A DNA stretch of 40,669 nt from Lachnospiraceae bacterium (GTDB taxonomy: Bacteria > Bacillota > Clostridia > Lachnospirales > Lachnospiraceae): positions 1 to 40,669 of the forward strand of contig JAGBBW010000113.1 of assembly GCA_017938285.1 (NCBI GenBank). The letters run 5' to 3'. The notes under the pieces were generated by a model. It was not told the DNA's origin. It searched no databases and worked only from the letters and a program-made list of their open reading frames with translations. Below are positions 10,522 to 21,868 of this stretch, one piece after another (positions within the stretch are counted from its first letter, which is position 1; each line of letters starts with the position of its first letter). Made by a program: the position numbers and the translations under genes.

Positions 10522-11283
10522 TTACTTGCGGATCACATAAAGATACCTTGCCATCTTCTCTTTAAACTGCGCATACTCTTCCTTCACACATTCCGTCTGC
10601 CCCAGCAGCATCTCAAACCAGCTTTTATTTCCTTCTGCTTCAAACTCTGCCTGATATTTTTCCGCAGCCGCCCGTTTCTTTTTCAGAAGTTCATACGTCT
10701 CTTCCGTAATATCCTCTGCTTCATACACCATGCCATTCTGTCTCAGCGCTTTTGCCAGTACAGTTGTATGTACACCCTCTGTCTTTGGCATAACATCCCC
10801 TTCCTGATAGCCTACAAAAAAGACACCATCCGGTTTTAACCAGCGCTTCACCTGCGCCACAAATGCCGCCATATCCTTTGCAAAATACATCGTATCCATG
10901 GAAATAATCACATCAAACGATTCCCATTCATACTCCACTTCTCCAATGATGCCTTCTCTGAACTCTGCCTTCACCGGATATAACTTCTGTGCCGTCTGGA
11001 TTGCCTGTCCGGAATAATCGAACCCATGAATCCATGCTCCTGTTTTCTCCTGCAAGTAACCCAGCATTTTTCCATTGCCACATCCAATATCCAGAATATG
11101 TGCCTGTTCCTTCTTTGGTATGTAGGGAAGAATCCGGTCAATCTGGGTCAGGTTGCTGAAACCATCCTGGGAAAAATCTTCACCGAACGCCTCACGACAA
11201 AAATTTTGAAAAGCGTTTGAGGTTTCTGCCATGGTATAGAATTCTTCGTAGGCGGTGTAAAATAATAACTCTGTTTTGTCCAT
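10522..11283 (-). CDS. Class I SAM-dependent methyltransferase
   Basis: A 253-residue methyltransferase. Motif I is ILDIGCGNGKML (about residues 63-74), followed by IHGFDYSGQAIQTAQ with the acidic residue that binds the ribose, then FDVIISMDTMYF (motif IV) and LKPDGVFFVGYQ. The C-terminal part is helical and rich in charged residues. The acceptor is unknown. GGAG six bases before the ATG at 11283 fixes the start; the frame reaches 11322 without better support. A perfect ATACCGGTAT palindrome lies at 11309..11318. First gene of the five- or six-gene operon running down to 7156. Confidence 0.85.
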   Translation of the reverse strand: MDKTELLFYTAYEEFYTMAETSNAFQNFCREAFGEDFSQDGFSNLTQIDRILPYIPKKEQAHILDIGCGNGKMLGYLQEKTGAWIHGFDYSGQAIQTAQKLYPVKAEFREGIIGEVEYEWESFDVIISMDTMYFAKDMAAFVAQVKRWLKPDGVFFVGYQEGDVMPKTEGVHTTVLAKALRQNGMVYEAEDITEETYELLKKKRAAAEKYQAEFEAEGNKSWFEMLLGQTECVKEEYAQFKEKMARYLYVIRK

Positions 11284-11445
11284 GTCCTTCTCCATTTTTA
11301 CTGTATCAATACCGGTATCCACTATACTGTCACAACGTTATGTTGTCCTATAAAGTAATTTTCAAACACGTTCTAAATTATATCATATCTTCCTTAATAA
11401 AAAAATACATATTTTAGACTACCTTCGTCCCTCGTCCCCTCTCCA

Positions 11446-11693
11446 GGTGGGCATACATTTTCTCTTCGCCCTGCTTTCGGCACAGTTCTGTCTTGGCTAA
11501 AAGATATGGAGCACTTCCACTAAATTACGCAGAGTCCTATAGAAAGGAAATAGTTCAAGGAACCGTTAGCGCAGGCGGGTTCCGGAACTATTTCCTTTCT
11601 ATAGGACTCTCAAAATTTCAACCTATACCGCTCCATATCTTTTCACAATCCCCACCACGCCGAAAGCGGGCGCAGATAAAATCTACGCCCGCC
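11446..11693. repeat. Giant nested hairpin of 248 bases: candidate structured RNA or palindromic element
   Basis: No gene lies between 11284 and 11778. Instead there are nested inverted repeats on one centre. From inside out: a 13-base apical loop (11565..11577); a 6-bp stem GGAACC/GGTTCC; a perfect 26-bp stem (11531..11556 with 11585..11610); an 18 x 19 base internal loop; a perfect 14-bp stem (11499..11512 with 11630..11643); a 17 x 15 base internal loop; and a basal stem of 31 pairs (11446..11481 with 11659..11693) broken only by four mismatches and one bulge. A further 6-bp match, TAGACT/AGTCTA, closes at 11415..11420 and 11710..11715. Total 77 pairs. The transcribed strand cannot be decided. 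In the minus direction a T-run follows at about 11400, which might end a transcript. Confidence 0.85.
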
Positions 11694-11778
11694 CCCGCAT
11701 TAGAAAGAGAGTCTATAAAAAGTATGTAGTCAGCATATTTTATAAAGTTCTACCAACGCCATTCGCTAAGGCTGAACT

Positions 11779-12942
11779 TTAACCCTTTATGATGCGAACC
11801 TTTCTAACGCCCGCAATCGCTTCTAACTTTGCTGCAATCGCTTCATTGGCAGCATCCACGTCAAGCACGGTATAGGAAGATTCTCCCTTACTCTTGTTCA
11901 CCATGTTGTCAATATTGATTCCCTCAGCAGAGAATACAGAGGTGAACTGTGCTAACATGTTTGGTACATTATCATGGAAAATACCAACTCTTGCCGGTGT
12001 GGTGCAGATACCTGCATCTACTGCCGGATAGTTTACGGAATTGGTAATATTGCCGTTTTCTAAATAATCCATTACCTGCTTTACTGCCATAACTGCACAG
12101 TTGTCCTCAGACTCTTCGGTGGAAGCTCCAAGGTGAGGGATGCAGATAGCTCCCTTCATGTTGGCAGATGCTGTGTTAGGGAAGTCAGTCACATACTTTG
12201 CAACCTTGCCTGCCTCTAATGCAGCAGCCATATCAACGTCATTAATCAGGGCATCTCTTGCGAAGTTCAGCACTACTACGCCGTTCTTCATCATTGTGAT
12301 GGTGTCCTTGTTAATCATGCCCTTGGTGGAATCCATCAACGGAACATGAACGGTAATATAATCACACTCGGAATAAATCTCACCGAGAGACTTAACATTC
12401 TTTACATACTGGGATAACTTCCATGCATTGGCAACGGAAATGTATGGGTCATAACCATATACTTCCATACCAAGAGCTGCTGCTGCGTTGGCAACCTCAA
12501 CACCGATAGCACCAAGACCAATAACACCGAGCTTCTTGCCCTTGATTTCAAAGCCTGCATAAGCACCCTTTGCCTTTTCTACCTGCTTTGCCAGATCCGG
12601 AAGATCCTTATTTTCCTTTACCCAGTCCATACCGCCAATGACATCTCTGGCAGCCAGTAACAGACCGGCAATTACTAATTCCTTAACACCGTTTGCATTA
12701 GCACCCGGAGTATTGAATACTACGATACCTTCCTGTGCACACTTATCCAGAGGGATGTTGTTGACACCGGCGCCAGCTCTTGCGATTGCCTTCAAATTCT
12801 TGGAAAATTCCATATCATGCATTGCTGCACTGCGGACTAAAATCGCATCTGCTGCTTCGATAGTATCTGTTGTAATATAATTATCACTTAAGCAGGAAGT
12901 TCCCACTTTGGATATTTTATTCAGACAATGAACTTTAAACAT
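11779..12942 (-). CDS. serA: D-3-phosphoglycerate dehydrogenase
   Basis: Catalyses the first step of serine synthesis, oxidising 3-phosphoglycerate to 3-phosphohydroxypyruvate with NAD. The 387-residue protein is the short form. The substrate domain parts flank the NAD domain, whose dinucleotide motif is GVIGLGAIG. Catalytic residues lie in LNFARDALI (Arg) and IPHLGASTEES (His). The C-terminal 75 residues (PNMLAQFTSVFSAEGINI) form an ACT domain, so serine feedback is possible. GGAAGGAG precedes the ATG at 12942. It follows serC by 21 bases and is the last gene of the unit. The giant hairpin lies downstream. Confidence 0.96.
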   Translation of the reverse strand: MFKVHCLNKISKVGTSCLSDNYITTDTIEAADAILVRSAAMHDMEFSKNLKAIARAGAGVNNIPLDKCAQEGIVVFNTPGANANGVKELVIAGLLLAARDVIGGMDWVKENKDLPDLAKQVEKAKGAYAGFEIKGKKLGVIGLGAIGVEVANAAAALGMEVYGYDPYISVANAWKLSQYVKNVKSLGEIYSECDYITVHVPLMDSTKGMINKDTITMMKNGVVVLNFARDALINDVDMAAALEAGKVAKYVTDFPNTASANMKGAICIPHLGASTEESEDNCAVMAVKQVMDYLENGNITNSVNYPAVDAGICTTPARVGIFHDNVPNMLAQFTSVFSAEGINIDNMVNKSKGESSYTVLDVDAANEAIAAKLEAIAGVRKVRIIKG

Positions 12943-17875: not shown

Positions 17876-17914
17876 ACAAAAAGCCCTAAACAGTAATTCA
17901 CTACTGCTTAGGGC
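17876..17914 (-). terminator. T-box attenuator terminator of the ilv leader
   Basis: Stem GCCCTAA/TTAGGGC, extended by CAGTA pairing, followed by TTTTTG on the minus strand. It lies 62 bases before the ilvD start and should compete with the T-box antiterminator. Confidence 0.85.
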
Positions 17915-18210
17915 GAATAAACCGAAAATACTCCGATTGTTCAAATCCGTGGTACCACCTAAATTCAAGGACACCTGCCATATGCAAAACATCCCTGCAC
18001 TCAAAATCCCGGTAACGTGGGATGACTCCGTCGGATTCTACTCTGGTTTCCCATTTCTTTCCGCCGCTCCAAGGCTACCTTCCATATCTTTTTTTGTGAA
18101 AGACTTGCACCAACCGTCTTTTCTCTGGCACAAAAAAGTATGTACTCTTCCTTTTCTTCGCAATATCACTATGTTACGATATTTTCTGATAAAAAATATC
18201 TATGGATTTG
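17876..18210 (-). promoter_or_regulatory. T-box riboswitch leader of ilvD-ilvB
   Basis: The minus-strand leader carries the T-box core TTTAGGTGGTACCACGG (about 17949..17966) before the attenuator. Stem I features are present: an AGTA element (18143..18146), a long stem beginning CATAC and closing at GATATG, an AGAGA bulge and a GGTTGGTG apical element. Uncharged tRNA should stabilise the antiterminator and allow ilvD transcription. The specifier is not certain. By alignment with the usual GAA-codon-CCTTGGAG layout, GTA (Val) at 18076..18078 is my best guess, but this leader has one extra base there. Confidence 0.88.
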
Positions 18211-21798: not shown

Positions 21799-21868
21799 AC
21801 GAAAAATAACTGCTGCCGGCAAGAAACACTTTTTAATACCGTTTCTTCCGGCAGCAGTTATTTTTCGT
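21799..21868. terminator. Bidirectional rho-independent terminator
   Basis: Arms 21799..21827 and 21841..21868 pair over 28 bases with one bulged C and a 13-base loop. T-runs lie at both outer ends. It serves the small plus-strand gene and the convergent CarD-type gene ending at 21872. Confidence 0.92.

Follow-up and report, generated by a model that had tools for sequence, protein, structure and literature searches.

A giant palindromic rod behind serA in a Lachnospiraceae bacterium and its relatives with a conserved loop and variable arms

The region behind serA in the Lachnospiraceae genome examined here carries a giant palindromic rod that is probably, in our view, a REP/MITE-like palindromic DNA repeat seated at the serA 3' end, terminator-like and lengthened by fold-back template switching. 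Comparison of related genomes documents the dispersal of the repeat, its common loop, the co-variation of its stems, its placement at gene 3' ends, and the pairing of an older arm with an inverted-copy arm; template switching as the process, and transcripts that end in the rod, are what we infer from the sequences.

Results

A palindromic rod behind serA

The rod occupies approximately positions 11406-11727 of the window (the whole 40.7 kb stretch of DNA that was analysed), with serA on one side and a methyltransferase gene on the other. The genome of the window (G000) is a draft of 3.2 Mb in 154 contigs, 86.7% complete, and all compared genomes of the genus (G001, G002 and G003) are likewise drafts. 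The features referred to below are:

10522-11322, minus strand: methyltransferase gene, the other neighbour of the rod
11399..11405, minus strand: run of seven T closing the rod in the serA sense, read from the sequence, directly after the basal helix
11406..11727, minus strand: whole rod palindrome in the serA sense, from folds and inverted repeats
11446..11481, minus strand: inverted copy of the terminator region, apparently the newer arm; absent in G001
11499..11512, no strand assigned: 14-bp middle arm, pairing perfectly with 11630..11643
11531..11556, no strand assigned: one 26-bp arm, pairing perfectly with 11585..11610
11534..11606, minus strand: family core hairpin (covariance model R1; 55.1 bits, E 1.8e-10 in the window and 1.4e-8 in the genome)
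11562..11580, minus strand: conserved asymmetric apical loop ACCCGC-CTG-CGCTAACGGT, from a pattern match and loop columns
11585..11610, no strand assigned: partner of the 26-bp arm
11630..11643, no strand assigned: partner of the 14-bp middle arm; its G003 counterpart differs by paired changes
11666..11692, minus strand: serA terminator hairpin, apparently the older arm; present in G001, G002 and G003
11736..11780, plus strand: probable second, degenerate family member, ~44 nt inserted immediately after the serA stop and containing a 7-bp hairpin; G001-G003 lack it
11779..12942, minus strand: serA, with D-isomer specific 2-hydroxyacid dehydrogenase domains PF02826 and PF00389

The initial annotation had described a giant nested hairpin in a gene-free gap, and its 26-bp, 14-bp and basal stems were all recovered around a common centre, the basal stem containing CTTTCGGC/GCCGAAAG and the serA terminator region. 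A palindrome scanner returns 11446-11693 as a palindrome of 77 pairs, and the RNA fold reveals an extra basal helix (~11406-11420 with 11710-11727) that closes the rod. The RNA fold reaches -132.8 kcal/mol on the plus strand and -152 on the minus strand (z -12.1 and -12.5), and 0 of 100 shuffles on each strand fold as low, in agreement with the claim that chance could not produce such a structure; our own scanner picks up no second palindrome in the window that reaches 50 Watson-Crick pairs. Open reading frames of at least 60 aa do overlap the rod (for example 11493-11729 on the plus strand, 78 aa), and none of them accounts for the pairing, as had been proposed. The description of the gap as gene-free needs one correction: the serA-proximal end is the serA 3' UTR and terminator, so that the gap is partly explained.

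The apex of the rod belongs to a dispersed family

A DNA similarity search of the draft genome finds the whole rod in a single copy in G000, and a search with the serA rod of G003 reveals that its apex is multi-copy. Eighteen core copies, selected for equal loop length, align without gaps over 74 columns, with the loop ACCCGC-TCAT-CGCTAACGGT conserved and the stems varying by copy; among these copies 17 of 17 outer pairs have double changes, and 83.6% of cells are paired vs 61.5% after shuffling. Covariance model R1 yields 28 match rows in G002, 37 in G003, one in G000 (that of the window) and none in G001, whose genome is 97% complete. Merging strands over the fetched loci leaves 61 sites (34 in G003, 26 in G002 and 1 in G000), of which L323, L334 and L335:1252 are weak members. 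The draft genome G000 has just one rod, and the two sister species have dozens of hairpins with its loop; the rod is not a single copy with no relatives, and the earlier suggestion of a mobile palindromic unit comes close, the apex being a dispersed repeat in those species.

Across 299 genomes of the family (298 genera), R1 with stricter filters finds only G000 and one weak match, in G028, which was rejected as a family member because its hairpin has a different loop; on 80 serA loci of other genomes R1 gives no match at E up to 1. A looser loop pattern occurs in the window and in two other places among the 299 family genomes, neither of the two being such a rod, and in at least 120 stretches of viral contigs, in which the exact strings of the two loops occur 0 times. 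When 128 pattern places were folded, giant rods were found in G000, G002 and G003 only (119-134 loop-spanning pairs, the next having 71). A one-mismatch loop match on C130 of G000 is not palindromic, looks like coding sequence and was set aside, and a plasmid or phage origin was rejected after a DNA comparison with 72,556 plasmid and 50,697 phage records gave nothing.

The serA 3' end in congeners

The giant rod lies at the same serA place in three of the four congeners (G000, G002 and G003). The rods of G002 and G003 fold at -201 and -196 kcal/mol (z -14 and -17), and they share the apical loop of the window rod, with arms that are mostly different; counts from a MAFFT alignment that misaligned the three serA rods are left out. 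The serA 3' end with its terminator is common to G001, G002 and G003 at 90-96% identity, and in G001 the terminator stands without the rod, in the company of other short inverted repeats. Since the terminator occurs alone in G001, one arm of the serA rod looks old and the other looks like its inverted copy. The proposal of a 3' UTR element of serA is thus close to the mark for the base of the rod, which is the serA terminator plus its inverted copy.

Behind serA in G001 (L005:1264-1407), several CCAACAAAAT-type inverted repeats stand in place of the rod. In the window, the ~44-nt insertion directly behind the serA stop is probably a second, degenerate family member, with a loop that resembles the family loop; it has no score with R1 and its fold is weak (z -1.7), and the assignment is therefore only suggestive.

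Placement behind genes and resemblance to terminators

By crude ORF calls, 38 of the 61 sites lie between convergent genes, 12 stand after a tandem gene read in the loop's sense, 8 after one read in the opposite sense and 0 between divergent genes, with 3 lacking a neighbour call; of the 35 remaining gaps of 40 nt or more between genes of these loci, 3 are convergent, 13 divergent and 19 tandem. Dozens of copies stand behind unrelated genes, and a called ORF overlaps the loop at 4 of the 61 sites. We claim no bias of loop orientation relative to tandem genes (12 to 8). T-runs of at least five accompany the 3' arm at 39 of 61 sites vs 35 of 604 flank windows.

Ordinary terminators are found at orthologous sites in G000 or G001 (L361, L359 and the G000 copy of site B), two of which (L361 and L359) have stems of ~20 bp and 4-nt loops, and at site C the G000 stem is 11 bp long and its loop 42 nt. 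Given these orthologous sites, the family copies look like terminators that replaced ordinary ones, and they would themselves end transcription; likewise, the seven T at 11405-11399 fit intrinsic termination of serA transcripts. A simple terminator scan reports no terminator-like site at the rod, the stem and loop limits of the scan being such that rods of this kind are excluded.

The same observations could be taken to mean that the hairpins are ordinary strong terminators and no more, with a loop held in common through selection on termination or through a loop-binding protein, and without mobility. The location at gene 3' ends, the T-runs and the ordinary terminators at orthologous sites all agree with that explanation. 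We nevertheless consider it very improbable, because copies at unrelated loci have arms in common, newer hairpins lie inside old ones (see below), and two congeners have 1 and 0 copies vs dozens in the sister species.

Rods contain inverted copies of gene ends

Palindrome extension, scored at 60 of the 61 sites, gives 24 long rods (38-123 pairs) and 36 short hairpins (16-31 pairs). A comparison of outer left and right arms, from which two sites were dropped for their short flanks, placed 15 of the other 59 above the 99th percentile of swapped pairs; the test is conservative, since some of the swapped pairs are orthologs. The coding end of the upstream gene was tested for copies in the far arm at 15 loci, and at eight of these the right arm resembles the inverted coding end and lies entirely or almost entirely clear of the next called gene (L309_2475, L325_1355, L290, L344, L309_4957, L310_1442, L324_1361 and L280; the copy at L325_1355 extends ~15 nt into the next called ORF). 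The eight score 12.6-21.0, the swapped 95th percentile being 12.2, and they are not all independent, as L325_1355/L310_1442 and L324_1361/L309_4957 are orthologs. At L322, L331 and L321_1112 the inverted copy lies within the called convergent gene, at L312_7917 and L335_1421 the signal is weak, and at L318 and L287 it may stem from convergent genes that are related to one another.

For L309_2475 and L309_4957 the coding arm appears to be the older one, because G000 or G001 has the same conserved coding end with an ordinary terminator after it; these assignments of older and newer arms draw on few relatives, with gene ends taken from crude ORF calls. Among rods with one coding arm, the direction of copying relative to the loop appears to be 8 to 1 (the exception being L311), from which we claim no bias, as 4 of the 8 are tandem without another gene end nearby. 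As single-stranded DNA the loop has no exceptional stability (z -0.5 to -1.5). Near 1330 of L331 (G002) and near 1112 of L321 (G003), the last codons of convergent called genes resemble mutual inverted copies, up to the same stop.

An older terminator or coding end paired with its inverted copy fits fold-back or template-switch copying. Template switching is reported, in the part of PMC8794818 considered here, to create perfect stems, to extend them and to invert loops. Under the reading that we favour, a core with the conserved asymmetric loop would land behind genes and serve as, or replace, intrinsic terminators, and its arms would drift in sequence without losing their complementarity. A strand folded back at the loop would extend on itself, or replication would switch templates across the palindrome, and the older flank (the serA terminator here, a gene's last codons elsewhere) would be copied in inverted form onto the opposite side, giving rise to the giant size. 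The core itself may have been spread by an enzyme or by long-range template switching.

A second lineage with an unrelated loop

Palindromes of at least 50 pairs were sought in the 538 kb that make up the 80 serA loci from other genomes, giving six matches in four loci. Those of L031, L075 and L063 are modest or a tandem array, the latter being seen at L063:5661-5945, from a Goat rumen Lachnospiraceae MAG, as alternating inverted units (TTTAGTCCGTATATTTT..CGGACTAAA). The fourth locus, L081:4172-4633, carries a giant rod of 175 pairs directly behind serA, with a different loop; its source is a MAG named Bacillota bacterium (JAUNDN010000023.1, here G301), the serA of which is 62% identical. The apex of this rod is dispersed in G301 (18 match rows, 14 distinct loci bearing the loop), and in a subfamily of 7 copies 116 of 119 cells in the second helix are Watson-Crick, with two Watson-Crick types at 8 of 17 pairs; counts for the apical helix, in which MAFFT put half of the second-family rows out of register, are left out. 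That both lineages were met at serA is a search effect, since only serA loci were scanned.

Two G301 copies match closely over ~320 nt and then diverge, which indicates that in this genome the arms travel with the element rather than coming from a neighbour, and this counts against the reading that we favour. A further reading, which we advance tentatively and regard as unlikely, is that a short conserved loop, once landed behind a gene, primes self-templated copying of the adjacent strand and so turns a gene 3' end into a giant rod, a capacity that would have arisen at least twice in Bacillota with unrelated loops (in the present genus and in the L081 MAG). The conserved part would then be a turnaround primer, and the arms, whether from the host or from the element, would be kept matched by repeated fold-back copying.

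Gain, replacement and loop inversion

At site A, a hairpin stands directly behind the stop codon in G003 and is cleanly absent in G002, and the ends of the site are palindromic A/T runs, where a target-site duplication would not stand out. Because site A in G002 has neither arm, simple copying of a resident arm was rejected as the origin of every member, and this site counts to that extent against the reading we prefer. Stretches of as much as 82 and 101 nt are shared, with 84% identity, between copies at different loci. Among 21 G002/G003 pairs with a common flank, some arms are kept with paired changes and some are wholly different; the loop is inverted in 5 of the 21, supported by both flanks in 3 of the 5, and we count these inversions for template switching because the effect is described for it in the portion of PMC8794818 referred to above. 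At three places an older hairpin is interrupted near its loop by a newer one, half of the old one being gone.

At L358:4749-5749 (G002:C32), G002 carries ~1 kb of different nested fold-backs that contain no large ORF of their own; the corresponding place holds a family hairpin in G003 and an ordinary terminator in G000. This suggests that further rod families exist.

Candidate movers

No transposase or reverse transcriptase could be linked to the hairpins. Y1 transposases comprise one intact gene in G003 and a single IS200-like type in G002, found twice on one contig; matches in G000 are weak or truncated, and G001 has none. No family hairpin occurs in the 16.7 kb around the IS200-like Y1 genes, and the 10.7 kb contig of the G003 gene has two hairpin sites, at distances of ~3.3 and 6.9 kb from that gene. 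A Y1 enzyme was not adopted as the mover, since its presence roughly tracks hairpin number but its genes have no adjoining hairpins. Reverse transcriptase was rejected too, being present in 2 of the 4 congeners without tracking hairpin numbers; the contig of the window has no RVT_1 match, in keeping with the earlier remark that the lack of an adjacent reverse transcriptase speaks against a retron.

These results bear on whether the family is a non-autonomous transposable element of MITE or REP type, moved by a transposase and carrying its giant arms as part of itself. Dispersal and presence/absence at single sites are what such an element would produce, the two second-lineage copies that are alike over ~320 nt behave accordingly, and Y1 genes are intact in the two species rich in hairpins. 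On the other hand, many rods of the genus have outer arms resembling the gene end beside them, the Y1 genes, of IS200-like type, lie apart from the hairpins (with the two sites a few kb away on the G003 contig as a partial exception), and GTAG/CGTC tags are not enriched: 13 of 61 sites have one (on either strand, at most 12 nt from an end) vs ~11 expected from a background of 9.8% per end. We therefore judge this explanation to be improbable.

Upkeep of the stems at the level of DNA or RNA

Selection on one RNA strand is expected to favour G-U pairs. The 61 cores contain 1360 Watson-Crick, 22 G-U, 27 A-C and 99 other cells, and since A-C is as common as G-U, the cores look as if kept up as DNA or on both strands. 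In the long rods, 91 G-U and 37 A-C stand against 59 and 47 predicted from composition (orthologous, non-independent rods are included in this count); the G-U excess runs against a purely DNA-level reading and suggests possible selection on RNA in the long rods. Compensating changes in relatives, whose absence the initial annotation would have held against an RNA, were indeed found, but the base-pair types in the cores point to DNA, or to both strands, as the level of upkeep.

The rod might instead be a structured RNA, either a long rod at the 3' end of the serA mRNA or an sRNA cut from it, recognised by its loop and with arms under RNA selection. Strong co-variation, the G-U excess of the long rods, the conserved loop and the persistence of the rod at serA in three species would all follow. 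We think it a poor prospect, however, given cores with no preference for G-U, the searches that found it neither in G001 nor in other sampled genera, and the dozens of copies behind unrelated genes. Further, Rfam yields nothing at gathering score at the rod, the sub-threshold matches of rods being mostly eukaryotic microRNA models that fit any long stem, and no promoter-like site was found inside the rod; with arms that also turn over, the suggestion of a 6S-like RNA is unsupported.

Discussion

Relation to known systems

Taken together, the family behaves like a dispersed extragenic palindrome of REP or MITE type and also like a template-switch hot spot. REP and REPIN elements are, in the parts of PMC3733652 and PMC3116915 consulted, GTAG- and CGTC-tagged extragenic palindromes, with REP stems of 5-13 bp (PMC3733652). 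As described there, they share with the rod family a short, dispersed, non-coding and palindromic nature, a position mostly between convergent or tandem genes and 3' of coding regions (for the rods, by crude ORF calls), and an occurrence that is often lineage-specific. The rod family differs in lacking the tag, in having stems of 16-123 pairs at 60 of 61 sites against the 5-13 given for REP in that source, in conserving the loop and not the arms, and in holding copies of neighbouring gene ends; unlike GTAG-type REPs, it has no RAYT flanked by repeats, no core hairpin lying in the 16.7 kb around the Y1 genes.

MITEs are likewise dispersed, short and non-coding, and the enterobacterial MITE-like RU-1 to RU-3 elements (PMC2759123) are intergenic sequences of 100-170 bp that resemble the rod family in these respects, although the portion of that description considered here does not contain the pattern of conserved loop and variable arms. 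The template-switch hairpins of PMC8794818, again as far as the consulted part goes, have perfect stems, stem extension, block changes in arms and inverted loops, as the rods do, and an inverted copy of adjacent older sequence is present in the rods as well; those hairpins concern rRNA and short stems, the largest pattern, of up to 59 bp, having failed quality control, whereas the rods form a dispersed family with one conserved loop and up to 123 pairs. Intrinsic terminators share with the family the position behind stop codons and, at most sites, the T-run near the 3' arm, and differ from it in that the family has very long stems and a conserved loop of ~18 nt. In the titles and abstract openings of a partial literature, we found no description of conserved-loop hairpins with host-copied arms.

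Significance

Orthologous gene ends that bear an ordinary terminator, a short hairpin or a giant rod in which the gene end apparently recurs as an inverted copy provide a natural series for the origin of long perfect stems, in which the apparent steps from terminator to giant rod are visible in living relatives, and the template-switch theory of stem origin becomes testable in bacteria. The family is also a caution against taking strong co-variation and a very low folding energy alone as proof of a functional RNA, because its hairpin cores show none of the G-U preference expected from selection on one RNA strand.

Two other structures were seen in the window: a T-box leader (RF00230, 104.5 bits) at 17906-18167 on the minus strand, which is the only family returned by the Rfam scan of the window, and at 21799-21868 a perfect 21-bp stem with a nested AAGAAAC..GTTTCTT loop, which is terminator-like.
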